From Streptomyces clavuligerus (lineage in GTDB: Bacteria; Actinomycetota; Actinomycetes; Streptomycetales; Streptomycetaceae), in contig NZ_CP027858.1 in the NCBI RefSeq assembly GCF_005519465.1, positions 4,154,001 to 4,218,000 of the forward strand: 64,000 bases of DNA, written 5' to 3'. The translations under genes and the position numbers were made by a program. The notes beneath the pieces are model-generated. The model did not search any database and had not been told where the DNA came from. It saw nothing but the letters and a program-made list of their open reading frames with translations. This document shows, piece after piece, positions 36,049 through 49,014 of this stretch (the stretch's first letter is position 1; each line of letters starts with the position of its first letter).

Positions 36049-36242
36049 GACGAAGCTCCAGACGGTGGCGCTGTCGGGCGCCGTGGACGGACGGTGTCGG
36101 GCGCCGGGGCGCGGCCCCGAGCATAGTCGCGCGGGTGCGCGCCGGGGCCCCGGGCTGTCGTCAAGGTCACCTATGCCGTCCCGGCCCCGCGCCCTAAACT
36201 TGGTTACTTAACGGTAGTTAGCGCATCTGGGGAGTGAGAGAC

Positions 36243-37409
36243 GTGGCCGGATCGACCGGTAAGCCGGACTTTGACCTGTACCGCACGTCCGAGGAGCACG
36301 ACGCGCTCCGGGACGCCATCCGCTCCCTCGCCGAGGCGAAGATCGCGCCGTACGCCGCCGCGGTCGACGAGGAGGCGCGCTTCCCGCAGGAGGCCCTGAA
36401 CGCGCTGGTCGCGGGCGACCTGCACGCCGTCCACGTCCCCGAGGAGTTCGGCGGCGCCGGGGCCGACGCCCTCGCCACGGTCATCGTGATCGAGGAGGTG
36501 GCCCGGGTCTGCGCCTCGTCCTCGCTGATCCCCGCCGTGAACAAGCTGGGCTCGCTCCCGGTGATCCTCTCCGGCTCCGACGACCTCAAGAAGCGCTATC
36601 TGACCCCGCTGGCCAAGGGCGAGGCGATGTTCTCGTACTGCCTCTCCGAGCCGGACGCGGGCTCGGACGCCGCCGGGATGAAGACCAAGGCGGTCCGCGA
36701 CGGCGACCACTGGGTCCTCAACGGGGTGAAGCGCTGGATCACCAACGCGGGCGTCTCCGAGTACTACACGGTGATGGCCGTGACCGACCCCGAGAAGCGC
36801 TCGAAGGGGATCTCCGCGTTCGTCGTCGAGAAGTCCGACCCGGGCGTCTCCTTCGGCGCCCCGGAGAAGAAGCTCGGCATCAAGGGCTCGCCGACCCGCG
36901 AGGTCTACCTCGACAACGTCCGCATCCCGGCCGACCGCATGATCGGCGCGGAGGGCACCGGCTTCGCCACCGCGATGAAGACCCTCGACCACACCCGCAT
37001 CACGATCGCCGCGCAGGCGCTCGGCATCGCGCAGGGCGCGCTCGACTACGCCAAGGGCTATGTCCGCGAGCGCAAGCAGTTCGGCAAGCCCATCGCCGAC
37101 TTCCAGGGCGTCCAGTTCATGCTGGCCGACATGGCGATGAAGCTGGAGGCCGCCCGCCAGCTCACCTACGCCGCCGCCGCGAAGTCCGAGCGTGTCGACT
37201 CCGACCTGACCTTCTTCGGCGCCGCCGCGAAGTGCTTCGCCTCCGACGCCGCCATGGAGATCACTACGGACGCGGTCCAGCTCCTCGGCGGCTACGGCTA
37301 CACCCGTGACTACCCGGTGGAGCGCATGATGCGCGACGCCAAGATCACCCAGATTTATGAAGGCACGAATCAGGTTCAGCGGATCGTCATGGCGAGGAAC
37401 CTGCCGTAG
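36243..37409 (+). CDS. Acyl-CoA dehydrogenase, 3' end replaced by the integrated element
   Basis: This FAD-dependent acyl-CoA dehydrogenase (fatty acid or branched-chain oxidation) has 388 residues. The GTG at 36243 has GGGGAG upstream. Marks are YCLSEPDAGSDAAGM, WITNAG, and GYGYTRDYPVERMMRDAKIT. The final 19 residues, QIYEGTNQVQRIVMARNLP, include the predicted catalytic base Glu373 and are encoded by the incoming element; the original coding end is at 48389-48452. The two versions differ by one residue (Val for Ile), so the enzyme is expected to remain active. This gene is the integration site (attB). Confidence 0.95.
   Translation: MAGSTGKPDFDLYRTSEEHDALRDAIRSLAEAKIAPYAAAVDEEARFPQEALNALVAGDLHAVHVPEEFGGAGADALATVIVIEEVARVCASSSLIPAVNKLGSLPVILSGSDDLKKRYLTPLAKGEAMFSYCLSEPDAGSDAAGMKTKAVRDGDHWVLNGVKRWITNAGVSEYYTVMAVTDPEKRSKGISAFVVEKSDPGVSFGAPEKKLGIKGSPTREVYLDNVRIPADRMIGAEGTGFATAMKTLDHTRITIAAQALGIAQGALDYAKGYVRERKQFGKPIADFQGVQFMLADMAMKLEAARQLTYAAAAKSERVDSDLTFFGAAAKCFASDAAMEITTDAVQLLGGYGYTRDYPVERMMRDAKITQIYEGTNQVQRIVMARNLP
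37346..37409 (+). other. attL: element-derived end of the acyl-CoA dehydrogenase gene
   Basis: 64 bases from the CACCCAGAT core to the TAG stop, matching 52 of 64 positions with attR. The differences are almost all third-codon positions, so the element carries a synonymous copy of the gene end. Confidence 0.88.
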
Positions 37410-37419
37410 CAGGGTTTTC

Positions 37420-37524
37420 GCAGGTCAACGGCACTCTGAGGGGTATCTGAACCGAGGGATCGACTTCCGTCCGTTCGGCTCCGTTTCCGCCTGTTCCTGG
37501 GCGTCATGCTGGGGAAATCCTGGG
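37420..37524 (+). promoter_or_regulatory. Left integrase arm-type sites
   Basis: GCAGGTCA (37420), GGGTATCTG (37441) and TGGGGAAATCCTGGG (37510) recur in the same orientation next to attR (48361, 48351 and 48319). This is the layout expected of integrase/Xis binding arms. Confidence 0.65.
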
Positions 37525-37565
37525 CGGATGCTGGGCAGAAAACAGGCTCTGAACTGCGCAAACGT

Positions 37566-37596
37566 GATGGCCCCCGGCGCAATGCCGGGGGCCATC
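37566..37596. terminator. Terminator of the integrase gene
   Basis: GATGGCCCCCGGC and its complement form a 13-bp stem with a 5-base loop, 13 bases beyond the integrase stop. It also faces readthrough from the dehydrogenase gene. Confidence 0.85.
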
Positions 37597-37609
37597 CGTA
37601 TGGGCTCGG

Positions 37610-38785
37610 TCAGGCTGCTTCAGCCTGCTCGGTGGGATCGTCCGCGCCGGGCGTCAGCATGGTGGCGATGGCTGCCCGTCCACGCTGTTCCGCCCCCTCG
37701 AAGATGTAGTGGTAGTGCTCCCGCAGTACGTCCGTGGAGCTGTGACCCATCCAGTCGGCCACGTCGTTCTCAGGGACACCCGCGTAGAGCAGCCGCGAGC
37801 CGTAGTAATGCCGCATGGCGTGTGGCTTGCAGTACGCCACATCCCCCTTCGTCAGGGCTGCAAGCCAGATCTGCCGGTAGAAGTACGAGGCGTAGAGGTA
37901 GCCCGTGCGGGAGACGTTGGGGAAGAGCAGGCGTTCCGGTCCCCACACTCCGTGGCTCTTGATGTGCCGCCGCAGCTCGAACGCGACGTTGGGCGGTAGG
38001 GGGACTACACGTCCCGGCTCCTCCTTGTCGCGGGCCTTGACGTGCCGCCGCTGTAGCGCGCTGTTCTTGCCGGACTCACTCTCGCCGTCCTCCGCGATCT
38101 GGAAGTCCACGCGCAGGACTTCGCCCTTGAAGTCGATCTGATCCCGCGAGACGGCCATGGCTTCCCCCAGCCGGAGCCCACACCCGGCCATCAGCCACAG
38201 CATCGCCCGATAGCGGGTCGGAGCCCCGTTGAGCATTGCCAGGACCTCACGCGTTGTGAGCCGCCGAGCCTTGCTCTTGTGCTCGCGAATCTCCTTGGCG
38301 CGACTGCCTGCGTGCTTGATTCTTTTGCAGGGGTTGCGCCCGATGATCTCGTTGACGACAGCCCACTCCATCATCCCGGAGAAGAAGGAGAACCGCTGGC
38401 GCCTGGTCCGCGCTGACAGCTTGCGGTCCGTCTCCATCCACAACAGCCACTGCTCGATGTCGGCCACCTTCAGGGACACGATGGTGCGGGCCTTGAAGAA
38501 CGGTTCCAGAGTCGTCCTCTGGATCGACCGGTACTGCTTCTTCGTGCTGTTCTCCAGCTTCCTTTGATTCGTCCACTGCTCCCAGACCGCCGTCACTGGC
38601 TGCTTCCCAAGCCTGTCGTCCAGGTAGGTTCCGGCGTCTAGCTCCCGCTCCTTCTTCTTCCGGTGGTCGTCGGCGCGTGTCTTCGTCCCGAACGACTTCT
38701 GCCGCTGCTTGCCGTCCGGGTCGTACCAGAAGGTTGTCCACTTCTTCGGATCGTCCGTGGAGCGCGCTATCCATGCCTTTGCCAT
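37610..38785 (-). CDS. int: Tyrosine recombinase (integrase)
   Basis: The protein has 391 residues. An N-terminal arm-binding segment (WTTFWYDPDGKQRQKSFGTK) and SAM-like core-binding domain (about 65-155) precede the catalytic domain: R205 in CGLRLGEAM, H322 and R325 in PHAMRHYYGS, H348 in MGHSS, and tyrosine nucleophile at Y358 or Y360 in REHYHY. All catalytic residues are present, so it should be active. It lies next to attL with its stop toward the junction, as is usual. It is predicted to recombine the CACCCAGAT core in the dehydrogenase gene. Confidence 0.96.
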   Translation of the reverse strand: MAKAWIARSTDDPKKWTTFWYDPDGKQRQKSFGTKTRADDHRKKKERELDAGTYLDDRLGKQPVTAVWEQWTNQRKLENSTKKQYRSIQRTTLEPFFKARTIVSLKVADIEQWLLWMETDRKLSARTRRQRFSFFSGMMEWAVVNEIIGRNPCKRIKHAGSRAKEIREHKSKARRLTTREVLAMLNGAPTRYRAMLWLMAGCGLRLGEAMAVSRDQIDFKGEVLRVDFQIAEDGESESGKNSALQRRHVKARDKEEPGRVVPLPPNVAFELRRHIKSHGVWGPERLLFPNVSRTGYLYASYFYRQIWLAALTKGDVAYCKPHAMRHYYGSRLLYAGVPENDVADWMGHSSTDVLREHYHYIFEGAEQRGRAAIATMLTPGADDPTEQAEAA

Positions 38786-38858
38786 GTGACCTGGTCTTCT
38801 CTGCTGCCGATGGGCCGCCGTGCGCTGCCCTGTGGCGCAAGTTTGATCACTGGCCCCC

Positions 38859-38900
38859 CAGGGTTGTCAACACGGGGTGGGCAACCCTGCGTGGTACGGT
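38859..38900 (+). promoter_or_regulatory. Divergent operator and leaderless promoter
   Basis: CAGGGTTG and CAACCCTG (38859-38866, 38882-38889) form a perfect inverted repeat with a 15-base spacer. TACGGT at 38895-38900 is six bases before the ATG at 38907, so the transcript would begin at or near the start codon. The repeat probably binds a repressor controlling int and the regulator gene. Confidence 0.55.
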
Positions 38901-38906
38901 GCGGGT

Positions 38907-39443
38907 ATGGAAGGCGATGAGAGCGGGTTCGAGATCACCCAGCAGCAAGGGGCCTGGACCATTCGCCTGTGGTGGCCCAGCGGCCCGGTAACAGGCGGTC
39001 CGCAGCGGGTCACCATCGAGACGGCGGAGGATGCCCCGGCACGTGATGTGGCGCGAGGGATCTCCACGACCGTGCTCCGGCGGCTGGACCTGCCCGGGGC
39101 GATCAAGATGGCGGAAGAACACGCCCCGAAGGGGCAGGAGGTCATGCAGGAACTCGCAAGGGCCATAGACCGGGGCGCCGAAACAGCCGGAGTGCTACTC
39201 GAACGTGATGGAGTCTCAGACGCGTATCTTGCGGTTCTCGCCTCCGTCTACAAGGCCGTGTCCGATACCGGCGCCGCAGCCCCGGTTCCCTGGCTTGCGC
39301 GGCGAGTCAACCGCAGCACCGAAACGGTTAAGGGGCACCTCAAGCAAGCGCGACGCGATGGCTACCTCACGACCGTGGCTGGCAAGGCCGGGGGCGAGCT
39401 GACCGATAAAGCGACGGAGGTGCTTAAGCGCATTGCCTTCTAA
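38907..39443 (+). CDS. Element regulator with C-terminal winged helix-turn-helix
   Basis: The protein has 178 residues from the ATG at 38907, preferred over 38877 because a -10 box lies immediately upstream. The N-terminal half has beta-strand character (GAWTIRLWWPSGPVTGGPQRVTIETAED), the centre is helical, and the C-terminus (PVPWLARRVNRSTETVKGHLKQARRDGYLTT) is a winged helix. The position next to the excisionase and divergent from int suggests a lysogeny or excision control protein. Similar proteins occur in actinophage-like elements, in my recollection. Role inferred. Confidence 0.7.
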   Translation: MEGDESGFEITQQQGAWTIRLWWPSGPVTGGPQRVTIETAEDAPARDVARGISTTVLRRLDLPGAIKMAEEHAPKGQEVMQELARAIDRGAETAGVLLERDGVSDAYLAVLASVYKAVSDTGAAAPVPWLARRVNRSTETVKGHLKQARRDGYLTTVAGKAGGELTDKATEVLKRIAF

Positions 39444-39484
39444 GTGCTGGAAGAGGAAGGGCGGAATCTGGATTGAGGAACACC

Positions 39485-39652
39485 GTGACAGGCAGGCTCC
39501 TGACCGTGGACGACGTGGCCGAATACTTGGGTAAGCCCAAGGGGTGGGTATACGCGAACTGGAAGCCCAGGGGTATTCCGTTCCGGAAGGTGGGTCAGGC
39601 GCTCCGCTGCCGCCCGGCCGCCTTGGAAGAATGGGTTGACGACCAGAACTGA
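39485..39652 (+). CDS. Xis-like MerR/HTH_17 small DNA-binding protein (55 aa)
   Basis: The GTG at 39485 has GAGG eight bases upstream. The residues LLTVDDVAEYLGKPKGWVYA, then IPFRKVGQALRCRPAALEEW, are the standard excisionase-type helix-turn-wing fold. It is probably the recombination directionality factor for the integrase, or a second regulator. It sits 40 bases after the regulator gene and before a strong terminator, so the two make a small operon. Confidence 0.85.
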   Translation: MTGRLLTVDDVAEYLGKPKGWVYANWKPRGIPFRKVGQALRCRPAALEEWVDDQN

Positions 39653-39669
39653 ACAGCGCGACTGCCAGA

Positions 39670-39695
39670 GCCCCCGAGGTGATCGGGGGCTTTTT
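39670..39695 (+). terminator. Intrinsic terminator after the Xis-like gene
   Basis: GCCCCCGA/TCGGGGGC stem, 5-base loop and a T5 run. It is the only terminator here with a classical U tail and separates the early operon from the downstream genes. Confidence 0.92.
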
Positions 39696-39713
39696 CTTTG
39701 ATGAGAGGACTGT

Positions 39714-40343
39714 GTGGCCAAGACGATCCCGCCCTCAGGCAAGTCGAAGCGGGCCAAGTGGGAGCGGCGTGCGGATGCGCTGCTGGAGGCGGCCGGGGAA
39801 GAGGCGGCCGAGGGGTGGCCGGGGTTCTGGCCGAAGCAGGCGGAAACGGAGTTCGAGCGGATAGTGGCAGCGCATACCGGGATGGTTCCTTTGGGCTGGA
39901 CCGCGATCGTGGCGATGCTTCCTTCCTGCGATCCGGAGTTGCGTCACCGGGACGTGCAATCCGTCATGGAACAGCGCCCCGGAGAGTGTGAGCCGGACCG
40001 CTATGGCGAACTGCTCTCTCTGCTCTCCGAAGCGGAGAGGGATGGCGTGCACCACGGCACCGGCTTCATAGTTGAGCGCCGGAATTATCCTCTGGATTCG
40101 TGCCGGTGGACTGAATGCCGTGAGCCTCTGTACGCCTTGCAGGGGGCGCGGAAACGGGGGCGCCCTCGGAGGTACTGCGAGGCTCACCAGAAGCCTGCCA
40201 GGGCCCGTACGCGGCGTTTGAGGTATGCGGGGATTCAGGTGGGGCGCAACAGGAACCTCGTGTACGACTTCGGCGGCCTGAAGGAGCAGGATCTATCGGG
40301 CTACCGGGAGCTGTGGGGCCGGGTCAACGTCGCCGGATCATGA
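39714..40343 (+). CDS. Hypothetical zinc-cluster protein upstream of capsid genes
   Basis: The protein has 209 residues with a GTG start at 39714. The first 120 residues are helical with a conserved-looking FWPKQAETEFERIVAAHTG segment. A putative zinc cluster follows: CRWTEC, then after 18 residues CEAHQ, in a basic context (KRGRPRRYCEAHQKPARART). It is directly upstream of the scaffold and capsid genes. A DNA-binding packaging or replication-control function (for example a small-terminase analogue) is possible but rests only on position and charge. Confidence 0.6.
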   Translation: MAKTIPPSGKSKRAKWERRADALLEAAGEEAAEGWPGFWPKQAETEFERIVAAHTGMVPLGWTAIVAMLPSCDPELRHRDVQSVMEQRPGECEPDRYGELLSLLSEAERDGVHHGTGFIVERRNYPLDSCRWTECREPLYALQGARKRGRPRRYCEAHQKPARARTRRLRYAGIQVGRNRNLVYDFGGLKEQDLSGYRELWGRVNVAGS

Positions 40344-40688
40344 TGCGCCGGAGACCGCGTCCGGGGCTTCCCTGCTGTGTCGCATTAATTCATAACAGTG
40401 GAGGAACGGATCCTCCGGGGCCATGCACACTCGGCGGTGTGCCTCTGGCACGGCCTGCGGGCCGGGCAGTTCCCAAGTCGTCATGGGGCTCTGCGGACAC
40501 CTCCCTGTGAGAGGGGCAATGTAGAGAAACACTTCCTCCCTTGCTTCCTGCTGTTGATCTCAGTGGGGGGTAAGGGGGGCAGTGTCTTCTCTTACGTTGT
40601 CCTCTTGTGAGGGGGTAGGGCCGTCCTAGAGCGGCCCATTCCCTCCCCTTCGATTCCTGTCTTAGTTAGATCTTCAGGAGGTGTCGCC
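40344..40688. other. Non-coding region upstream of the scaffold gene
   Basis: No credible ORF; a 70-codon frame at 40398 has non-protein-like composition. The region contains a G-rich GTGGGGGGTAAGGGGGGCAG run (about 40563-40582), the hairpin-prone GGCCTGCGGGCC, and an AT-rich stretch with a plausible late promoter (CTTAGTTAGATC) before AGGAGG. It could hold a promoter and possibly a packaging signal. Confidence 0.5.
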
Positions 40689-41090
40689 ATGAGCGACGAA
40701 CCAAACCATTCCTCTTCTCTGATGCCCACGCCGGCCGATGTGGCCGACCCTGTCCAGGAAGATCCTGTTGTAGTTCCTGAGCCCGATCCTGCCGAGGCCC
40801 TGCGTGCCGAGATCCGGCGGGATTACTCCGTGAGGCTGGCTCATGCCGAACTGAGGGTCGAGGCCACCCGTGCGGGGATTGATCTTCCCGATGGGTTTGT
40901 CGAACTCCTCGACCTTTCCAAGCTGCTGGGCGAGGACGGAGAGCCATCGGCCGACGCCATCGGGCTGGCTCTCCAGCCCTTTCAGGAGTTGAAGAAGCCC
41001 AAGTTCATCCAAAACCTCGGCCTCGGCCGCCAGGGCCCCAGCTATGCTCCGGCAGCACACGTATCCCTTGACGCCCGAGAGCGGCACTAA
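40689..41090 (+). CDS. Putative capsid scaffolding protein
   Basis: The protein has 133 residues; the ATG at 40689 has a perfect AGGAGG site. It is acidic and disordered at the N-terminus (ADVADPVQEDPVVVPEPDPA), helical in the middle (ALRAEIRRDYSVRLAHAELRVEA), and basic/hydrophobic at the C-terminus. This profile, with position 15 bases before the capsid gene, is typical of phage scaffolding proteins. No protease is seen. Assignment is by context rather than by a distinct motif. Confidence 0.65.
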   Translation: MSDEPNHSSSLMPTPADVADPVQEDPVVVPEPDPAEALRAEIRRDYSVRLAHAELRVEATRAGIDLPDGFVELLDLSKLLGEDGEPSADAIGLALQPFQELKKPKFIQNLGLGRQGPSYAPAAHVSLDARERH

Positions 41091-41105
41091 CCCGGAGGTA
41101 AGCCT

Positions 41106-42020
41106 ATGACGGCCCGTGCATACCAGAACCCTTCTTCCCATACATTTGTCAGTGAGGAATGGGACTCCGCACTCCTGACCCAATATGATCCGCTGCTGGT
41201 CTGGGCTTCGCCGCTTGTCTGCAACCGCAAGTACGAGGGCGACATCAGTAAGCAGGGCGACCTTGTTCACATCAACTCGCTTGTGACTCCCACTGTCGCG
41301 GATTACAAACTGCCGGACGGCATGACGTTTCAGCGCCCCGAGACGGTTGACCAGAAGCTGGAAGTCAGCGAGGCCAAGTATATTCAGCTTCTTGTTGAGG
41401 ATGCCGAGCGAGCACAGGTGGCGGGGACGATCGATTCACCGATCAATCAGCGCATGATTCAAGCCCTCGCCCGCGAGACGGACACCTTCGTAGGGAACGT
41501 TATCGCCAGCGGTGCAACGGCTCTGCCAAGCGCCAAGGCGACGGCTCAGAACGCACCTCAGGTGCTCTACGGAACAATTCTTGACATGATGCTGGCCCTG
41601 GACGACAACGATGTTCCCACGGGCCGCTACGTCGTCGTGTCCCCCAGGGTGAAGCGATATCTGATCGAGCATCCCGCCATTGCGAACGCAGGGGCATACG
41701 GCGAAGGCGGCGTCACCGCAAACGGTCTGATCGCTCGACTGGCAGGCTTCACCGTCGTGTCCACTACCGCCATGCCGAAGGGGGTGGACATCGTCGCCGG
41801 TCACTCTGACTTCAGCACTCACGCAAGCCAGTTCACCGGATTCCGGACCCTTCAGAGTGAGCGATACAGGGCAGACGTCATCGACAACCTTCACCTGTAC
41901 GGGGCCAAGATCCTCCGATACCCCGGTATGGACACGAAGAAGGCGGACAGTACCTTTGACGAGTCCAAGCCCACCAAGGGCATCGTGAAGGCTTCCGTGG
42001 AATGGGTGCTGGCGGCCTGA
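41106..42020 (+). CDS. HK97-fold-like phage major capsid protein
   Basis: The protein has 304 residues; the ATG at 41106 has GGAGG upstream. The order of elements matches HK97-fold coat proteins: FVSEEWDSALLTQYDPLLVW, CNRKYEGDISKQGDLVHINS with PTVADYKLPDG, DQKLEVSEAKYIQLLVEDAE (spine-helix region), RETDTFVGNVIAS, PTGRYVVVSPRVKRYLIEHP and the C-terminal GFRTLQSERYRADVIDNLHL. It would form a T-number icosahedral shell, with the gene at 40689 as scaffold. A hairpin terminator follows. This is the only structural shell gene in the element. Confidence 0.88.
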   Translation: MTARAYQNPSSHTFVSEEWDSALLTQYDPLLVWASPLVCNRKYEGDISKQGDLVHINSLVTPTVADYKLPDGMTFQRPETVDQKLEVSEAKYIQLLVEDAERAQVAGTIDSPINQRMIQALARETDTFVGNVIASGATALPSAKATAQNAPQVLYGTILDMMLALDDNDVPTGRYVVVSPRVKRYLIEHPAIANAGAYGEGGVTANGLIARLAGFTVVSTTAMPKGVDIVAGHSDFSTHASQFTGFRTLQSERYRADVIDNLHLYGAKILRYPGMDTKKADSTFDESKPTKGIVKASVEWVLAA

Positions 42021-42034
42021 CCGCTGATTTGTTT

Positions 42035-42058
42035 GGGCCCCGCCGACCGGCGGGGCCC
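42035..42058 (+). terminator. Terminator after the capsid gene
   Basis: GGGCCCCGCC/GGCGGGGCCC stem (10 bp) with GACC loop, 14 bases after the stop codon. Confidence 0.88.
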
Positions 42059-42542
42059 GTTCCCGTTCACTCTCCGTCGAACTTAACGGGCGCCGGCCAC
42101 CGGCCCAGAGTGACAAAAATCGATGCGACCACACGCCGCTAGGTGTGATCTGCCGATTCCGGTACGCCGCCACCTCAAAGGGTGACGCGCCTCACCGCTA
42201 TTCATGCAAAATTCGACCCCAGCGGCCTTTCTCGGGTCACCCGCGGAACGCGCCTCAGGGATTTGAATAAGGAAATGGCGAATTCCTGAAAATTTGATAC
42301 CCGTACACGGTTCGAGGAAGGCACCCCCGGTGGGTCCTCATTCCTTACTAACACGCATTACCCCCACTTCTTGCATTCGTTTGAGTTACGCATCATTTAT
42401 CTGCGCGTAATAATTTCGTGATTGATCGTCGGCAGGGTTGATCTCGCACCGCAGCAGCGAATGCGGTCGGCCGTCAGAGCGAATCGCTCCGGCCCTGTTT
42501 CTGAGACTTCCCTGTCCCTCACGAACGAAGGAATGCAGATTC
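42059..42542. other. AT-rich non-coding region, candidate replication origin
   Basis: These 484 bases contain no credible gene and are among the most AT-rich in the window. Visible elements are TTACGC-N13-GCGTAA (42386-42410), another ACGCAT at about 42353, GGAAATGGCGAATTCC (about 42271-42286), and long T/A runs near 42395-42420. They lie upstream of the BRCT-Lsr2 and DUF3987-like genes, as expected for an element origin or a regulatory region. Which of these is not decided by sequence alone. Confidence 0.5.
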
Positions 42543-43286
42543 ATGCGTAGGACCGTTCTCGTGCCCGTTCTGAAGACCCTGTGCGACGCTCACATAGCGC
42601 GGGACGGGAGCGAGGAAGACGCCACGGCGACCCTGACCCTGGGAGAGCGCGCGTGGGACCTGTGTGGGGAGCATCAGGCGACGTTCAGCCGCTACCTGAC
42701 GGATGCCCTGGGGACAGGGGCGGACGACGACCACGTTCCAGACGACGACACAACCGGAGAACCGGACCCCGTCATCGAGACGGAGCCGGAAGCGGACAGA
42801 GCCTGTGAGGCGGACGCCGACGATGGTGCCGGACCGGAACCGGTGCGGTCCGTGATGATCGCCGGTGAGGTACCCGGGTACGAGTGGGACACGGCCCGTG
42901 AGGCCGTGCGGAACCTCGGGTACGAAGTGGTGGGGCGCGCGGACGACAGCACGGTTCTGCTCATCCTGGGTGAGGGTGGGGAGCGCAACGGAACCAAGCT
43001 GCGGGACGCGGCGGAGCGCGGCATCCCGTGCATGGACGTCCGGGCACCGGGCCGGTTCCGTGACGCGGTACGGGCTGGACGGTTCACGGGCGGTGACCCG
43101 CTTCCGCAGCCTGCCAAGGTGGACCGGTCGGGGATGAGTGAGCGGGAGCGCAACCGGCTGATCCGGTCGTGGGCCCGTGGCCAGGGATACACCGTTCCTT
43201 CCCAGGGGCGCATCCCGATGGGCGTGCGGCACGCCTACGAGACAGCTCACCGGAACGCCCCGGAGGGAAAAGCGGCAGCGGCCTGA
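42543..43286 (+). CDS. BRCT-like plus Lsr2-type DNA-binding fusion protein
   Basis: The protein has 247 residues; the ATG at 42543 has GAAGGA upstream. Residues 1-57 form a small N-terminal domain (TLTLGERAWDLCGEHQATFSRYL), 58-98 are an acidic linker, and 100-183 resemble a BRCT fold (VRSVMIAGEV, AVRNLGYEVVGRADDSTVLL, GTKLRDAAERGIPCMDV). Residues 197-236 match the Lsr2 C-terminal AT-hook-like domain (SWARGQGYTVPSQGRIPMGV). Lsr2 binds AT-rich DNA and silences it. A role in nucleoid binding of the element's own DNA or of helper or host DNA is plausible. Confidence 0.8.
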   Translation: MRRTVLVPVLKTLCDAHIARDGSEEDATATLTLGERAWDLCGEHQATFSRYLTDALGTGADDDHVPDDDTTGEPDPVIETEPEADRACEADADDGAGPEPVRSVMIAGEVPGYEWDTAREAVRNLGYEVVGRADDSTVLLILGEGGERNGTKLRDAAERGIPCMDVRAPGRFRDAVRAGRFTGGDPLPQPAKVDRSGMSERERNRLIRSWARGQGYTVPSQGRIPMGVRHAYETAHRNAPEGKAAAA

Positions 43287-43354
43287 GTGCCGCACCCCCG
43301 GCGGGGCCGACCGTTCCCCGTGGCGGTCGGCACCCCGGACCCTGTGACCTGAGT

Positions 43355-43693
43355 GTGTGGAAGCAGGCGACCGGCTACGGGGCAGGGGCCAAGCCCAGCA
43401 AGCGCGACTACGCCCCCGGTAGCTGGGTGGCGTGGACGGCCCCGAACGGGAAGCGGCGCATGGGCGTCGTCAGTGATGACCGGTTCACCCTGGCCACCGT
43501 GAGGCGGTCGGCACAGGTGGGGCAGGCCAAGGAATCGCGTTGCAAGGCCGTGGTGCTACCGGCCGACGGGGGCGACGCCCTGCCGCTGTGCCCGGCCACG
43601 AAGAACCACCCCCACGCAGTGATCAAGGACGGGGGCCGCTGGCGCCCCGCCCACCCCCACCACGAACGAACCAAGGAAGCGGCAGCAGCATGA
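43355..43693 (+). CDS. Hypothetical protein before the replication ATPase
   Basis: The protein is 112 residues from a GTG at 43355 with a weak ribosome-binding site; earlier starts are unlikely because the upstream part of the frame is in hairpin DNA (43309-43332). The domain DYAPGSWVAWTAPNGKRRMG then VVSDDRF resembles a small beta-barrel or SH3-like fold. The C-terminus is His/Pro-rich. Its stop overlaps the ATG of the next gene as ATGA, so it is cotranslated with the ATPase. Function unknown. Confidence 0.6.
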   Translation: MWKQATGYGAGAKPSKRDYAPGSWVAWTAPNGKRRMGVVSDDRFTLATVRRSAQVGQAKESRCKAVVLPADGGDALPLCPATKNHPHAVIKDGGRWRPAHPHHERTKEAAAA

Positions 43694-45048
43694 ACACCCT
43701 CGTTCTCTACGGTCCCATCGGCCGCGCGGTCCGCAAGATCGCACCGTTCACGGAAACCGATCCGCTCGGGATCTACGTGGCCGTTCTCTCGATGTGGTCC
43801 GCCGCGATCGGCGGAACGGTCACCGTCTCCTCCCGGGGCAACGCCCGGCCCGTTCTCCTGTGGTCCGCACTCGTCGCCGGAACGGGACGCGGAAAGGGAA
43901 CCGCACTGCGAGCCGCCCAGCACATCCTGGACCGACCCTTGGGCCGCTTCCTCGCCACCCACACCACATCCGGGATCACCTCCGGCGCCAGCATGGTCAA
44001 CCACCTGTGGCAGCAGCAGGAAGCGACAGCGGAGACAGAGCACGGGCGGGATGTCCGGGCCCTGGTGGTCGAAGAGGAATGGACGGAGATCTTGAAGAGG
44101 GTCAAGCGTGACCCGTCGTTCACGACCAAGCTCCGGGCCGCGTGGGACGGCGCCACCCTGCGCAACACGACCAAGGAAGAGGCGCAGGAAGTCCGCAACC
44201 CCGCCATGGTCCTCCACTCCCACATCACCCCCTCCGACTGGACCAAGTACATCGGGGAAGCGGAAGCGGCCGGAGGCTCGTACAACCGTATCCTCCCTTT
44301 CCTCCTCGGATCGGTCCCGATGCTGGACGACGACCGCATCAGCCTGCCCACCGTGGACGGCGGCGACCTCGCCGACGCCTACGGGTGGGCCACCGCCCGC
44401 CCCCGCACCATCACCCTCGCCGACAACGCCCGCCCCCGCTGGCGCACCATCCGCCGCTACGCCCGCATCCTGGGCGAGACCCTTCCCGAATCGCAGGCTG
44501 TGTTCATCGAGCGGACCGCCGAACAGACCCTGCGGGTCGCGGCCTGTCTCGCAGCCTCCGAGTGCTCCGAGACCATCACGGACGACATGCTGTCGGCGGC
44601 CCTCACTCTCGTACGCCGATCCATCCACGACACCGTGAGGATTAGTAAGGGAGCCACCGCCCCGAAGCCGGGGCGTCAGGCCCCGAGCCTCGCGGACAAG
44701 GTTCGCGCCCGCATTGAGATGCACGGCGGACGCGCCACCTCCTCCCAGGTACTCCCGTTCGTCGGAGCGACCGCCGCCGAGGTCAAGGCCCTGCCGGATG
44801 TCGCGGTCACGGTCGAACGGTCCGGAAAGACCGGCCGACCGGCCACCGTCTTCACCCTCCGCGGTGACACTTCCGCTCACGCAGAGCAGCCGAAACAGGC
44901 CCTGGAGCCCCAGCCGGCGAGCGCGGAGCGTGAGAAGAACCGCACCACCGTCGTTCACATGGACGCCTACCGTCCGGCACTCGCCCCGGTGCGGCCAGTG
45001 GCCCCTTCCCCCGCCGTATCTGACAACCCCTTCCGAGCCCTCCTCTGA
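43690..45048 (+). CDS. DUF3987-like P-loop ATPase (replication helicase-primase type)
   Basis: The protein has 452 residues, starting with ATG 43690. It has Walker A GTGRGKGT at 64-71, Walker B RALVVEEEW at 123-131, a sensor-like YNRILPFLLG, and a helical C-terminal domain. A winged helix (ARIEMHGGRATSSQVLPFVG) and a Pro-rich tail follow. Proteins of this kind (DUF3987/YfjI) occur in phages and satellites as replication helicases. It probably drives element replication from an origin near 42059-42542. No primase active site is visible. Confidence 0.75.
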   Translation: MNTLVLYGPIGRAVRKIAPFTETDPLGIYVAVLSMWSAAIGGTVTVSSRGNARPVLLWSALVAGTGRGKGTALRAAQHILDRPLGRFLATHTTSGITSGASMVNHLWQQQEATAETEHGRDVRALVVEEEWTEILKRVKRDPSFTTKLRAAWDGATLRNTTKEEAQEVRNPAMVLHSHITPSDWTKYIGEAEAAGGSYNRILPFLLGSVPMLDDDRISLPTVDGGDLADAYGWATARPRTITLADNARPRWRTIRRYARILGETLPESQAVFIERTAEQTLRVAACLAASECSETITDDMLSAALTLVRRSIHDTVRISKGATAPKPGRQAPSLADKVRARIEMHGGRATSSQVLPFVGATAAEVKALPDVAVTVERSGKTGRPATVFTLRGDTSAHAEQPKQALEPQPASAEREKNRTTVVHMDAYRPALAPVRPVAPSPAVSDNPFRALL

Positions 45049-45058
45049 CAAACAAAAG

Positions 45059-45094
45059 AAGTGCCCCGGCCGGATCACTCCGGCCGGGGCACTT
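45059..45094. terminator. Bidirectional terminator
   Basis: A 16-bp stem (AAGTGCCCCGGCCGGA and complement) with a 4-base loop and flanking A/T runs, between the convergent ATPase and DUF397 genes. Confidence 0.92.
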
Positions 45095-45111
45095 TTGTGC
45101 CGGTCCCAGAC

Positions 45112-45318
45112 CTACGCGCCGGGGAACTGCGCGTCTTGGAGGGCGCGGACGAACGTGGACCAAGTCCGCCCGCCTACGGTCACTTCAGGCCCCCGCGTGA
45201 CCTTGCTGTCCCGTGCGGCCACTGTGCCGGGGGTGAGGCGCACCTCAACGCAGTTCCCGTTTCCGTTGCTGTAGCTGGACTTCCGCCACTGCGCGCTGTG
45301 TGGATCTTTCCTGTTCAT
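45112..45318 (-). CDS. DUF397 small protein encoded by the element
   Basis: The protein has 68 residues: WRKSSYSNGNGNCVEVRL, VAARDSKVT, and WSTFVRALQDAQF. The ATG at 45318 overlaps the stop of the Scr1-type regulator as ATGA. It is a Scr2-like partner; in a mobile element it may serve stability or superinfection control. Confidence 0.9.
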   Translation of the reverse strand: MNRKDPHSAQWRKSSYSNGNGNCVEVRLTPGTVAARDSKVTRGPEVTVGGRTWSTFVRALQDAQFPGA

Positions 45319-46202
45319 GGCTCCCTATAGCTCCCTGCCACCTCGGAGATCAAGCGCCTTGACGCCTGCTCATCGAGTGCCGCGCTCCAGATTCCCTCGA
45401 ACGCGGCCTCGTACTGGTCCACTTCCTTCGCTTTGTCGAGGTAGAGCCCTCCGGTGTACCCGTCCGCATAGACGGTCGGCGGCTCCATCTCGACCCCATC
45501 GCCGTTCACCGGGAAGCGGAGGATGACGAAGGGTCCTGTGACGACTCCCATGTGGGCACCGGCGCTGAACGGCACGATCCGAATCGAGAGGTTCGGCAAT
45601 TCGGACACGTAGACGAGATGCGCAAGCTGGGCGGCCATGACCGCGTGGTCTCCTATGGGCCTGCGCAGCACAGTCTCGGCCAGGGCCACCTTCACGACGG
45701 GCGGGTCAGTCGCACGAGTGAGGAGGGTTTGACGTTCGATGCGCAGCCGTACCCGACCGTCGAGTCCCGCCTCATCCATGTCCGGGTAGTGAATGCGGGT
45801 GATCGCGCGAGCGTACCCATCGGTCTGGAGCAGGCCCGGAACTACATCGCTCTCGTAGGAGGACAGACCCGTAGCGGCCTCCTCCAGACCGACATACACG
45901 TCGAAGCCTTCGGGAATCACGTCACCGTAGGCGTGCCACCAGCCACGGGCCTTCGTCTCCTTGGCAAGGCCCATCAGGGCTTTGGTCAGATCCGATGGAG
46001 CGCCGTAGACCGTGCACATCGCCTGGACGTCGAGGGCGCGCAGAGGCGTCTGCCCCGTCTCGATCCGCCACATCTTTGCCTCGGACCACTCCAGCTTCAC
46101 CGCCGCCGCGCGGACAGTCAGCCGGGCGCGGCTGCGGAGTTCCTTCAGGTGCCGCCCCAGTTGTCGGCGGGGGACTGTTGACCCTGTCGGCCCCTCTGTC
46201 AT
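45315..46202 (-). CDS. Scr1-type XRE/DUF5753 regulator of the element
   Basis: The protein has 295 residues with ATG at 46202. The HTH spans about residues 14-70 (LGRHLKELRSRARLTVRAAA, SEAKMWRIETGQ). DUF5753 marks are VVPGLLQTDGYARAI, VKVALAETVLRRPIG and SIRIVPFSAGAH. A perfect palindrome (TGACGGA-CT-TCCGTCA, 46229-46244) lies 27 bases upstream and is likely its autoregulatory site. It is the second Scr1-type regulator in the window and the only one inside the element. Confidence 0.92.
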   Translation of the reverse strand: MTEGPTGSTVPRRQLGRHLKELRSRARLTVRAAAVKLEWSEAKMWRIETGQTPLRALDVQAMCTVYGAPSDLTKALMGLAKETKARGWWHAYGDVIPEGFDVYVGLEEAATGLSSYESDVVPGLLQTDGYARAITRIHYPDMDEAGLDGRVRLRIERQTLLTRATDPPVVKVALAETVLRRPIGDHAVMAAQLAHLVYVSELPNLSIRIVPFSAGAHMGVVTGPFVILRFPVNGDGVEMEPPTVYADGYTGGLYLDKAKEVDQYEAAFEGIWSAALDEQASRRLISEVAGSYREP

Positions 46203-46228
46203 CTCTGCTCCTTCTTCTGGCCTCAGTA

Positions 46229-46244
46229 TGACGGACTTCCGTCA
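46229..46244. promoter_or_regulatory. Palindromic operator upstream of the element's Scr1-type regulator
   Basis: TGACGGACTTCCGTCA is a perfect 7-bp inverted repeat around CT, positioned between the divergent regulator and small-protein operon. Confidence 0.6.
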
Positions 46245-46448
46245 CTCACGATGAGAGTGCTCTGACGCTCGTCCCGAGCCGCAGGGCATCAGTTCGACTC
46301 CCCAGCAGCGGGACATTGTAATGAAGTCTTGCACGGCAATGGCCCGCCATGCAGGCTGGAAACCCAGACACCGGACAGCATCACCGTTGCTGGTGAAGCG
46401 AGTTGACGTGTCATCAGATTTCGCCAGTGGCGTTGGAGGTATTCGGCG

Positions 46449-46604
46449 GTGAGCGACGACGAACCCGTGAGTGCTATTGCTCTCCAGGTTCCGGAACTTG
46501 AGTCACTTCCCATCAATGGGTGGTGCTGTGACGATGCCGTCAGGCAGTGCCCCGACCGTCGAGCTACAGAGGGGAAGGGGGCGCCGGGATGGACAACCCG
46601 TTGA
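46449..46604 (+). CDS. Small protein with Cys pair (51 aa)
   Basis: The GTG at 46449 has GGAGG nine bases upstream. Sequence: acidic start MSDDEPVSAIALQVPELESL, then NGWCCDDAVRQC with three Cys. The frame ends inside the next ORF (46589) with 16-base overlap. Function unknown. It is the first of a small-protein operon reading toward attR. Confidence 0.5.
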   Translation: MSDDEPVSAIALQVPELESLPINGWCCDDAVRQCPDRRATEGKGAPGWTTR

Positions 46605-46783
46605 GGTTTCCTCCGTGCCAGTGCCCCAATCCCGCCTGCCCGGATCAGGCGCCTGCTGAATCAGCCGAAGCTGTCGAGCAGGCCAAGCCCATCCAGCCCT
46701 CGGATGACAGTCCCGTACTCGCCGCGCTCCGGGCGCGCATCCGTGAGGACAACGCGCGCCGGACGGGGTGGGGGGCCGTGTGA
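46589..46783 (+). CDS. Small protein with N-terminal Cys cluster (64 aa)
   Basis: ATG at 46589 with GGGGAAGGGGG upstream. Begins MDNPLRFPPCQCPNPACPDQ, with C-x-C and C-x4-C spacing that may bind zinc, followed by an acidic/helical tail. Its stop overlaps the next GTG. Function unknown. Confidence 0.55.
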   Translation: MDNPLRFPPCQCPNPACPDQAPAESAEAVEQAKPIQPSDDSPVLAALRARIREDNARRTGWGAV

Positions 46784-46878
46784 ACAAGCTCCGCTCGTGG
46801 GCAGTCGCCATCGGCATGGCCGTCGCCTACGCGGCCACCGCCGTCCTGCTCGTCGCACTCGCCAGAAACAGCCCCTAG
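46780..46878 (+). CDS. Tiny membrane protein (32 aa)
   Basis: The GTG overlaps the previous stop. A basic start MNKLRSWAVAIGMAVAYAAT leads into a single hydrophobic segment AVLLVALA. Its tight coupling with the preceding ORF supports it being real. It could be a membrane-acting or regulatory peptide; unproven. Confidence 0.5.
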   Translation: MNKLRSWAVAIGMAVAYAATAVLLVALARNSP

Positions 46879-46970
46879 ATACTCCGCCCCCGTCGAACCC
46901 CCGTTTCCGTGTCCCCCACGGCCAGAGTCGCGGCGGGGGCGGGCTTACACCCTCACGAGGAGAGGCATCT

Positions 46971-47225
46971 GTGGCACACCTCGCGCCGGAGACAGTCGCC
47001 GCACGCGGACGCGTCCTCAAAGAAAGGAACGACGTAGTCGAGCGGTACCACGCGGGAGCGTCGGTCAACGCGATTGCGCGGGACTACGGTGTGCGTCCTG
47101 AATGGTTGCGCGACCGTTTCAGCGACTGGAACGTTCCGATGCGGACCCGTTCACAAGCAGCCATCGCATGGTGGCGCCAGCGGCCCGCAGAGGAGCGCCG
47201 CAGGGCTCGGCGTCGAGGGAGGTAG
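46971..47225 (+). CDS. Small helix-turn-helix protein (84 aa)
   Basis: GTG at 46971 with GAGGAGAGG upstream. A homeodomain-like HTH spans VVERYHAGASVNAIARDYGV with RPEWLRDRF, followed by a basic tail rich in Arg. It resembles small transposase/resolvase-type or phage regulator HTH proteins. It probably binds DNA; the target is unknown. Confidence 0.7.
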   Translation: MAHLAPETVAARGRVLKERNDVVERYHAGASVNAIARDYGVRPEWLRDRFSDWNVPMRTRSQAAIAWWRQRPAEERRRARRRGR

Positions 47226-47327
47226 CCCAATCAGCTTCCGCCCCCGTGGAGAGCACAGAGCGGCGGCGGGAACCCCGGACCCAACCGGGCCGGGAAACGC
47301 ACCACCCGACAGAAGAGAGGTTCAGCT

Positions 47328-47420
47328 ATGGAACCGTGGATTCTGAACGAGTGCGACCACCAGTACGAGCAGTGGAGTGGGGCGCAGCGCTGCATCAAGT
47401 GCGGCCACACGCAGCGATAG
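47328..47420 (+). CDS. Tiny zinc-ribbon peptide (30 aa)
   Basis: ATG at 47328, GAGAGG seven bases upstream. Sequence contains CDHQYEQWSGAQRCIKCGHT, i.e. C-x-H and C-x2-C, enough for one zinc knuckle. Such peptides occur in phage and actinobacterial mobile DNA. Function unknown. Confidence 0.6.
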   Translation: MEPWILNECDHQYEQWSGAQRCIKCGHTQR

Positions 47421-47484
47421 TCGAGAAGCCGGAGGGGTGCCGGGGCGACACCGGTGCCCCTCCTGGCGCTGACATGGGGAATCG

Positions 47485-48276
47485 ATGACTGAACGAGTCC
47501 AGTGGGAAGAGTTGCCCGTCGAACTCCGCGCGGCCGTCGAAGCGCGCACCGGGCCGGTGATCGCGGCTGAGACTGTGGCCAGCGGATTCAACTGCACCCT
47601 GGCACTCAAGGTGCACACCCGCAGGGGTGGACGCCTGTTCCTCAAAGGAGTACGGGTATCAGACACGGCAGGGATGGACGGTCTGCTCTGGGAACAGCAG
47701 CTCAACAAGGTGGTCGGCGATGTCGGGCCGACGATTTGCCACCAGTTTGAGGCGGGCGGGTGGCTTGCTCTGGCGTTCATCCACATCGACGGGCGGCACG
47801 TGGACTACGCGCCCGGAACCGGCGACCTGGAGGCCGTCACGCGGACCCTTCGCCGGATGCAACACCTGGGCCCCCCAGCTGTCCACGTTCCGCAACTGTC
47901 CGACCGGTTCGACGGACCACTCACGCGGGAGGAAGCGGCAGCGCTGCACGGCACGAACCTTCTCCATACGGACACCAATCCGCACAACGTCATGATCGGG
48001 CGGGATGGAGCCGCGTACGTCGTGGACTGGGCCATGCCCGCACTGGGACCCGCATGGGTGGATGTCGCCTACACGGCCCGATGGCTCATGGCCTTCGGTC
48101 AGCCTCCGGAAGACGCCATGGCATGGCTCAACGGATTCACCAGTTGGCGACAGGCGGACCGCGCCGCCGTGGAGACCTTCGTAGAGGTCACATGCCGCGA
48201 GGCCACAGCGCGCTTGGGAGAGAAAGACTCAGCCCCGACGAACGCACGCTTCCGGCACCTGCTCGGCTCACCGTGA
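47485..48276 (+). CDS. Aminoglycoside phosphotransferase (APH)-fold kinase
   Basis: The protein has 263 residues with ATG at 47485. The APH/choline-kinase catalytic loop LLHTDTNPHNVMIG (161-168 for HTDTNPHN) and the metal-binding VVDWAMPALGPAWVDVA (D181) are present, and K54 in LFLKGVRV may contact ATP. The N-lobe is short. This type phosphorylates small molecules (aminoglycosides, sugars, or other metabolites). As the last gene before attR it may be cargo of the satellite. Substrate unknown. Confidence 0.85.
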   Translation: MTERVQWEELPVELRAAVEARTGPVIAAETVASGFNCTLALKVHTRRGGRLFLKGVRVSDTAGMDGLLWEQQLNKVVGDVGPTICHQFEAGGWLALAFIHIDGRHVDYAPGTGDLEAVTRTLRRMQHLGPPAVHVPQLSDRFDGPLTREEAAALHGTNLLHTDTNPHNVMIGRDGAAYVVDWAMPALGPAWVDVAYTARWLMAFGQPPEDAMAWLNGFTSWRQADRAAVETFVEVTCREATARLGEKDSAPTNARFRHLLGSP

Positions 48277-48318
48277 TCCGCAGCGACCCGAGCAGGCCCC
48301 GTCGAGTCGAGGCGATCA

Positions 48319-48368
48319 TGGGGAAATGCTGGGGAGGGGTGCGGTGAAGGGGGTATCTGTGCAGGTCA
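48319..48368 (+). promoter_or_regulatory. Right integrase arm-type sites
   Basis: TGGGGAAATGCTGGG (48319), GGGTATCTG (48351) and GCAGGTCA (48361) match sites near attL in the same orientation, with 14 of 15 bases conserved for the longest. Confidence 0.65.
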
Positions 48369-48388
48369 GCGCCTGATGGACTGTAAAG

Positions 48389-48452
48389 CACCCAGATCTA
48401 CGAGGGCACCAACCAGATCCAGCGCATCGTGATGGCCCGCAACCTGCCGTAG
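48389..48452 (+). other. attR: original 3' end of the acyl-CoA dehydrogenase gene
   Basis: The 64 bases encode QIYEGTNQIQRIVMARNLP and a TAG stop in high-GC codon use typical of the chromosome. They are now separated from the rest of the gene by the element, so they are not translated. Confidence 0.88.
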
Positions 48453-48507
48453 CCCTCACGCACGGGTGACCCCGGGCGGTCCCGCCCGGGGTCGCCTGTG
48501 TGTCCGT

Positions 48508-48705
48508 TTACCTGGCCAGGTCGTCGATGAAGGCTGTCCACGCGGGTGCGCCGAAGGTGACGGCGGGGCCGGTGGGGGTTTTGCTGTCGCGGACGGGGAC
48601 GAGGCCGGGGAGGCCGTCGCCGACTTCCACGCAGTCCGCTTCTTCACCGTTGCTGTAGGTGGACTTGCGCCAGTGGGCGGTGGTCAGGTCGGGTCGTGTA
48701 CGCAT
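48508..48705 (-). CDS. DUF397 small protein, duplicate
   Basis: The protein has 65 residues: MRTRPDLTTAHWRKSTYSNG, CVEVGDGLPGLVPVRDSK, and APAWTAFIDDLAR. It is nearly identical to the DUF397 protein at 48817 and lies 309 bases away as a tandem copy. The duplicated unit includes the last 41 codons of the upstream regulator (now at 48684-48809), so its translation coupling has been carried along. Confidence 0.88.
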   Translation of the reverse strand: MRTRPDLTTAHWRKSTYSNGEEADCVEVGDGLPGLVPVRDSKTPTGPAVTFGAPAWTAFIDDLAR

Positions 48706-48816: not shown

Positions 48817-49014
48817 CTACGTGACCAGGTCGTCGACGAAGGCTGTCCACGCGGGTGCGCCGAAGGTGACGGCGGGGCCGGTGGGGGTTTTGCTGTCGCG
48901 GACGGGGACGAGGCCGGGGAGGCCGTCGGCGACTTCCACACAGTCCGCTGCCTCGCCGTTGCTGTAGGTGGACTTGCGCCAGCGGGCGGTGGTCAGGTCG
49001 GGTCGTGCACGCAT
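48817..49014 (-). CDS. DUF397 small protein
   Basis: The protein has 65 residues with WRKSTYSNGEAADCVEVADG, LVPVRDSKTPTGPAVTFG. Its ATG at 49014 lies 22 bases inside the end of the Scr1-type regulator gene at 48993, so the two are coupled. Partner of the regulator. Confidence 0.9.
   Translation of the reverse strand: MRARPDLTTARWRKSTYSNGEAADCVEVADGLPGLVPVRDSKTPTGPAVTFGAPAWTAFVDDLVT

Follow-up and report, generated by a model that had tools for sequence, protein, structure and literature searches.

How does an integrative element move if it carries genes for a phage shell and no recognisable gene for filling that shell with DNA or for fitting it with a tail? The question is raised by an 11.04-kb element of Streptomyces clavuligerus (host genome 8.54 Mb), located in a 64,000-nucleotide stretch of contig NZ_CP027858.1 (positions 4,154,001 to 4,218,000) that was analysed as a whole and is here called the window. 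An earlier annotation made from the letters of this stretch (the original prediction) described the element as a satellite that brings its own shell and depends on a helper phage for DNA packaging and tails. Our sequence comparisons indicate that it is very probably a cos-type phage satellite, with Streptomyces phages of the Success/Ibantik/Ponzi lineage as its helpers. The satellite reading has held up on four grounds, namely a helper-type cos site, a narrow element size, a gene set that recurs in three kinds of attachment (att) site, and a small-terminase (TerS) cassette in 7 of 23 related loci.

The features that carry the argument are the following (window positions):

36234..37409, + strand: acyl-CoA dehydrogenase, host gene whose 3' end is the attachment site (PF00441 5.6e-51 and other ACAD domains)
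37346..37410, + strand: attL, reads as the recoded 3' end of the dehydrogenase gene (65-nt direct repeat; arrangement repeated in seven other loci)
40565..40612, + strand: conserved non-coding block upstream of the scaffold-capsid pair (17-nt core in 13 of 23 loci, at most 2 mismatches)
40689..41090, + strand: scaffold-like protein (tblastn to annotated phage scaffolding proteins; family profile)
41106..42020, + strand: homologue of HK97-fold major capsid proteins (PF25209 2.2e-7; phrog_267, major head protein, 1.8e-40)
42300..42365, + strand: cos-like packaging site (left arm 42300-42309, core 42320-42337, right arm 42356-42365)
48389..48453, + strand: attR, reads as the displaced original 3' end of the dehydrogenase gene (direct-repeat comparison)

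A putative cos site and the helper lineage it names

Blind counting of the 12-mers common to 20 elements of this kind picked out, apart from coding words, two non-coding blocks: one precedes the scaffold gene and the other follows the capsid gene. The post-capsid block consists of CCCGTACACG, 10 variable bases, GGCACCCCCGGTGGGTCC, about 18 bases and CATTACCCCC, and occupies 42300-42365 in the window. When the deposited ends of the phages Success, Ibantik and Ponzi are joined, this block is recreated; the joined ends of phage phiSASD1 gave no match to it. A pattern taken from the Ponzi ends (variable positions open, at most 3 mismatches) matched the window once, at 42300-42337 with 2 mismatches, and matched the shuffled window in 0 of 100 trials (mean 0.00). 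The element thus appears to hold the cos site of the Success/Ibantik/Ponzi lineage, its left arm being read as cosB-like and its core as cosN-like. With that site it should be cut and packaged by the terminase of this lineage, which names the helper group.

The distribution of the block was followed in 23 close loci, comprising the window, L002, L004-L008, L038-L047, L069, L071-L073 and the IMG/VR contigs L054 and L055; left out were L003/L010 (one fragment of genome G167 found twice), L070 (on the contig of L005) and short duplicate-place loci. It is present after the capsid gene in 21 of the 23, including L008, L043 and L046, whose blocks were missed in a first motif scan and recognised by eye. 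The exact core 18-mer occurs on nine IMG/VR contigs, all with the longer block, and a Success-type large terminase (TerL) matches in every one of them (best pieces 59-85% identical). The model phrog_2 found 0 of these nine and is unsuitable here, since Success TerL matches them all. Two of the contigs, examined whole, are prophages related to Success and Ibantik that encode TerS, TerL, portal, scaffold, a weak capsid match, DUF3987 and Lsr2/BRCT. As a separate observation, Success-type TerL is split into two open reading frames (ORFs) or carries a stop at L085:14457-16059, at L088:13390-15038 and in Ponzi genes 42-43, which may reflect an intein, an intron or a frameshift.

The left half of the block comes in two forms. 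A phage-type arm, CCCGTACA, is found in the 14 block-bearing loci without a small terminase, and an arm like GATTGGCAAAC in the seven loci with one, so that TerS and arm covary (7/7 vs 0/14, Fisher 8.6e-6; arms classed by eye). Nearly identical capsids (97-98%; L071/L043 and L044/L042) can differ in state, so the TerS cassette and its arm were apparently swapped as a unit on more than one occasion. In IMG/VR the alternative arm was found in 43 stretches, with the core alongside only in the satellites L054 and L084 (the L055 contig).

The block might also be an early promoter or a replication origin that the elements share with the phages. It precedes the Lsr2 and DUF3987 genes in the elements, and in helper-type prophages it separates the early genes from a lysogeny-like region, as such a signal might. 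However, both genome termini of three phages, each deposited on its own, fall on the block, and its left half switches form in exact step with the presence of a small-terminase gene; we regard this alternative as very improbable.

The small-terminase reading itself is based on a match to phrog_226 (3.5e-15, there named 'minor tail protein'), a Terminase_7 match just under the cut-off (3.3e-5, 24.3 vs 27 bits), a phiSASD1 relative that overlaps the TerL gene, and the name 'terminase small subunit' on many, not all, of the phage records among the matches listed. The TerS of Success is a Terminase_7 protein (4.7e-28) with tblastn matches in 0 of the 23 loci, and by sequence the satellite TerS is only distantly related to that of the helper. 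One satellite TerS searched by tblastn against the phage collection gave no match at 1e-3; the link to phiSASD1 comes from local tblastn. As a query, the phiSASD1 TerS matches seven of the 23 loci, the window not among them.

Other evidence leads to the same phages. Searches of the phage collection with the scaffold and DUF3987 proteins returned Success, Ibantik, Ponzi and Thermobifida phage P318 only. Judged by their integrase genes, Success, Ibantik and Ponzi belong to a temperate lineage. Success-type TerL at 61-87% identity occurs in 8 of 392 Streptomyces genomes, and three of the eight also hold a satellite, against 14 of the 392 overall (P 0.0018); when all 24 TerL-positive genomes are counted, four have a satellite (P 0.007). 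Phages like phiSASD1 were considered as helpers, given their similar capsid and optional TerS, and rejected: the cos block differs from the phiSASD1 ends, and satellites show no co-occurrence with the distant capsids (1 of 16 genomes, P 0.45).

A recurrent element of narrow size without recognisable motor, portal or tail genes

The two att copies that the original prediction placed about 11.04 kb apart were recovered by repeat comparison as direct repeats of 65 nt each, 82% identical and spaced by 11,043 nt. From their sequence, the recoded end at attL reads as restoring the host gene, and attR as the original end displaced by integration. Seven further relatives occupy the same dehydrogenase gene in the same arrangement.

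A protein search with the capsid returned 126 homologues; among the 120 listed most are 66-80% identical, and their named sources are Streptomyces and Kitasatospora. A looser group, also among the matches listed (P0104-P0118, about 50% identical), comes from Nonomuraea, Actinomadura and others. The best-ranked match in a deposited phage is 31% identical. The 392 Streptomyces genomes held 15 places at 67-100% (14 genomes, the element's own included) and 16 places at 30-34%. In IMG/VR, capsid searches with the single sequence and with a Nonomuraea relative gave no match, and a class-wide search with that relative matched the own genome alone among 394.

In the first 17 loci the capsid is found 17 times, DUF3987 16 times and Lsr2/BRCT 15 times; the scaffold cluster is present in 15, with tblastn matches in the two others. 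Both att copies were recovered for 17 elements, eight in the dehydrogenase gene, seven in a tRNA-Leu gene and two in a TerD gene, and their integrases differ. As to the other six loci, L071 has one att copy, no copy was seen in L040, L042 or L047, and the contigs of L054 and L055 are cut. The G+C content within 14 elements is 60-66%, compared with 70-74% in their left flanks. Two genomes hold more than one locus: G584 has two family elements (L069 and L071) in different att sites, and G090 an element without a found integrase (L047) together with a scaffold-capsid remnant (L040).

Element size is confined to 10.50-11.63 kb in the 17 elements with both att copies despite differing cargo (mean of 16, 11.10 kb; standard deviation 0.33). 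Three segments (up to the capsid, from there through DUF3987, and the rest) differ in length among the elements, yet the differences compensate: the variance of total length is 0.112 kb^2 vs 0.300 for the summed parts, a value equalled in 0.5% of permutations. With the elements related by descent the value is indicative, and a fixed-size shell would impose such compensation. Phage P4 offers a parallel, with a genome of about 11.6 kb and a T=4 shell.

What these elements lack was assessed by tblastn (E 1e-3) with 16 structural and lysis proteins of Success and phiSASD1 against the 23 loci and eight controls, a test that can miss very distant families. For 77 pooled element ORFs the profile scans cover the first 25 families, out of 61 in PHROGs and 41 in Pfam, and the statement of absence is based on tblastn. 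With 15 of the queries, TerL, portal, protease, adaptor/neck, tail, endolysin and Success TerS were found in 0 of the 23 loci. In the window element neither the 16 queries nor Pfam, PHROGs and NCBIfam (ten ORFs each) revealed a homologue of terminase, portal, protease, neck, tail or lysin proteins. By tblastn, the absence of large terminase, portal, tail and lysis genes noted originally extends to the whole set. In the controls, structural queries matched 8 of 8, with TerL and portal in 7 of 8. The remaining control, L052, has a distant capsid and gave major tail and tape-measure matches alone (Success-type tail), with no TerL or portal found; it could be either a diverged prophage or another variant.

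Could the element be a decayed prophage that kept integrase, scaffold and capsid by chance? Homologues of its scaffold, capsid, DUF3987, Lsr2 and integrase proteins do occur in phage Success, and one related locus (L040) is a remnant with scaffold and capsid matches only. However, decay predicts close capsid homologues beside TerL or portal genes, and these were found in 0 of the 23 loci, against TerL and portal together in five of six 20-kb loci with distant capsids (31-33%). Also, this reduced gene set turns up at three different kinds of att site, in elements uniform in size and with a conserved cos block, and the capsid frame is open in 23 of 23 loci and under purifying selection (ratio of nonsynonymous to synonymous rates, dN/dS, median 0.13; 168 pairs). 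The same gene losses each time are not what decay would produce, and we reject this scenario as extremely improbable.

Capsid, scaffold and the proposed particle

The predicted structure of 41106-42020 has the HK97 fold and agrees with the Pfam and PHROGs matches, as the original prediction had anticipated. The scaffold assignment of 40689-41090 also stands: the ORF has no match in Pfam, PHROGs or NCBIfam, and by tblastn it matches annotated scaffolding proteins of four phages, Success (7e-9), P318 (2e-5), Ibantik (1e-4) and Ponzi (4e-3). A profile of the satellite scaffolds scores the Success-type lineage (six proteins) at 2e-24 to 9e-19 vs 4e-9 to 5e-6 for phiSASD1-like ORFs (five, two of which, G1055 and L053, have uncertain starts). 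For the capsid the order is reversed, with 1e-47 to 3e-35 for phiSASD1-like proteins (six) vs 6e-31 to 1e-5 for the helper lineage (six). The satellite scaffold retains the middle region common to the aligned phage scaffolds.

Between these genes and their upstream neighbour lies the other block found by 12-mer counting (40565-40612), which is G-rich, continues with TTCTCTTACGTTGTCCTCTTGTGAGG and stands ahead of the scaffold gene. Its single exact IMG/VR match falls within a satellite. It is possibly a late promoter or a site that responds to a regulator or to the helper.

Since the HK97 fold alone does not separate a phage capsid from an encapsulin, the protein could in principle be domesticated, forming a compartment of the encapsulin type or acting as a decoy against helper assembly, in an element without particles of its own. 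We consider this very unlikely. The best fold and sequence matches of the capsid are phage coat proteins and its neighbours, a scaffold gene and a cos site, are phage-like and disfavour an encapsulin; packaging best accounts for the helper-type cos of 21 of 23 loci and for the constrained element length.

For a cos-type satellite the following course may be proposed. On helper entry or induction, Int and Xis would excise the element, which would then replicate. Its capsid and scaffold would form a small shell with a capacity of about 11 kb, by analogy T=4; the helper terminase would cut the element at cos and pump one genome length through the helper portal, and helper tails would finish the particle. 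Relatives with their own TerS (7 of 23) have a different left arm and would probably steer packaging toward themselves.

The part of the original prediction that leaves packaging and tails to a helper agrees with the helper-type cos and the missing motor, portal and tail genes; the claim of an own shell is an extrapolation with which a role like that of Ccm competes. In this alternative, satellite capsid and scaffold would not close a shell by themselves but join the helper capsid protein during assembly and make it build a small shell. The DNA of SaPIbov5 is likewise packaged from cos by a helper, with Ccm and the helper capsid protein only 24% identical (PMC8569155, PMC5052747), a value close to the roughly 23-27% (best rows) between satellite capsids and those of Success, Ibantik and P318. 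On the other side, the element supplies a scaffold along with the capsid, whereas the phi12/SaPIbov5 system is described without a separate scaffold (PMC8569155). Also, the satellite capsid is nearer to phiSASD1-like proteins, and the helper-type prophages G1061 and G1055 barely match it (4e-6 and 6e-6); with capsids so remote, co-assembly becomes less likely. We therefore think a Ccm-like role rather doubtful, and on balance expect a shell made from the satellite capsid alone. That a foreign shell of the phiSASD1 kind is combined with the portal, motor and tail of another lineage, a helper-type chimeric scaffold recruiting the portal, is put forward tentatively, at somewhat less than even confidence. 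If true, phage lineages could swap capsid and portal by way of the scaffold, and a mobile cassette of TerS and left arm would tune the DNA choice of a shared motor.

Several points weigh against the satellite and helper assignment as a whole. By sequence profile the capsid is nearer to the phiSASD1-like than to the helper lineage, and the fit of the helper portal is unexplained; the satellite scaffold is also without the C-terminal tail found in seven of nine aligned phage scaffolds. L007, which has both att copies, and the remnant L040 carry no recognisable site. The cos reading assumes that deposited phage ends are physical ends, which is the convention. In the window's own genome neither TerL query matches and a resident helper was not found. 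The TerL identity cut was set after the hits had been seen (no best hit per genome lies between 42% and 61%), and both draws of 392 genomes were taken as the same set. As the loci are related by descent, none of the values from permutation, Fisher's test or co-occurrence is a strict probability.

Among known systems, cos-type Staphylococcus aureus pathogenicity islands (SaPIs) with Ccm, such as SaPIbov4/5, are by analogy the closest in mode of action. They share a helper cos, a capsid homologue, packaging by the helper and a limit on element size (PMC5052747, PMC8569155); the window element carries the first two of these traits, known here from its sequence. SaPIbov5 procapsids are T=4 and Ccm acts in the pentamers (PMC8569155). 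Unlike cos-type SaPIs, the element resides in Streptomyces, has a scaffold gene too and is built from other protein families, and some relatives add a small terminase with a different left cos arm. It stands outside the staphylococcal lineage, its homologues being proteins of actinomycetes and actinophages. Phage-inducible chromosomal islands (PICIs) of E. coli retain the cos core with a different cosB that is read by a TerS-like protein (PMC6739421). One of them, EcCICFT073 (Rpp), with its core cos, different cosB and protein partly in the role of TerS, parallels the seven TerS-bearing relatives (PMC6739421, PMC6092414). Unlike EcCICFT073, which is packaged in full-size helper capsids, a small shell is proposed here, and the window element has the helper-type arm and no TerS.

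Capsid-forming PICIs (cf-PICIs) share a satellite-encoded capsid and helper tails, but encode portal, protease, connectors and both terminase subunits (PMC10690885). Here none of these was found save TerS in seven of 23 relatives: the window has capsid and scaffold only, and TerL, portal, protease and adaptor were found in 0 of the 23 loci. The original prediction called a satellite with only scaffold and capsid genes unusual and knew of no description in Streptomyces. Satellites that encode a capsid and a scaffold are already published for this genus, namely MulchRoom and MiniFlayer (PMC10690885); their gene sets differ, however, having small and large terminase and portal and no primase-like genes in the account given there, the mirror image of a family with DUF3987 and no TerL or portal. 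Candidate PICIs of Mycobacterium, including phiRv1/phiRv2-like ones, combine an integrase with a major capsid protein and in some cases scaffold, helicase or terminase (PMC10654092); they belong to another genus and have other capsids, and section 9 of that paper assigns them no helper or cos site. Phage-inducible chromosomal minimalist islands (PICMIs) have DUF3987 in their search model and, as described, no capsid-remodelling genes (PMC10803314), and mobilisable elements at large are reviewed in PMC11389934. General traits of satellites, site-specific integration and an incomplete particle gene set, are both found in the element. No description of the Streptomyces family was recognised in the open-licence PMC literature, subscription papers lying outside the scope of the search.

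The elements thus make up a recurrent satellite family of Streptomyces and Kitasatospora for which the sequence points to likely helpers, namely laboratory phages of S. lividans. The family bridges satellites that merely reshape a helper shell and satellites with a full packaging set. It offers a test of whether the portal of one phage lineage can enter the shell of another, and a natural series in which small terminase and DNA site swap together.

Further genes of the element and its surroundings

The remaining genes of the window element are as follows:

37610..38785, - strand: tyrosine integrase (PF00589 1.4e-16; phrog_1 2.7e-50)
38877..39443, + strand: helix-turn-helix (HTH) DNA-binding protein (phrog_11473 1.5e-26)
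39485..39652, + strand: Xis-like small HTH protein (PF12728 HTH_17 2e-9; family in 11 of 17 loci)
39714..40343, + strand: conserved protein of family c11, no assigned function (no Pfam, PHROGs or NCBIfam match; 7 of 17 loci)
42543..43286, + strand: Lsr2 DNA-binding domain protein (PF23359 3.4e-11; weak BRCT match 0.0032, below cut-off; cluster in 15 of 17 loci)
43169..43693, + strand: small ORF of family c13, start uncertain (6 of 17 loci; no family cut-off reached in Pfam, PHROGs or NCBIfam)
43588..45048, + strand: DUF3987 primase/helicase-like replication protein, start uncertain (PF13148 2.2e-16; phrog_3022, DNA primase, 1e-8; 16 of 17 loci)
45112..45318, - strand: DUF397 protein, cargo (PF04149 6.7e-19)
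45315..46202, - strand: XRE/DUF5753 regulator, cargo (PF19054 1.7e-55)
47485..48276, + strand: aminoglycoside phosphotransferase (APH)-like kinase, cargo (PF01636 2e-7; relative in phage Success, best 32%)

The integrase, the Xis-like protein and the replication-type protein of the original prediction were all recovered by these profile matches. The Lsr2 protein with its weak BRCT match, the cos-like site and the block at 40565-40612 are additions of the present analysis. A PADLOC scan gave weak matches only, and no tRNA or Rfam family was found in the window at gathering score. Relatives of the APH-like kinase, the XRE regulator and the DUF397 ORF are encoded by genes 1, 6 and 7 of phage Success, and judging by these sequences cargo seems to be common to satellite and helper lineage. 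Just beyond attR, next to an XRE-like ORF, two similar DUF397 ORFs stand in tandem (48508-48705 and 48817-49014); they contain a 90-nt repeat at 93%, and 48508-48705 matches PF04149 at 7.8e-21.

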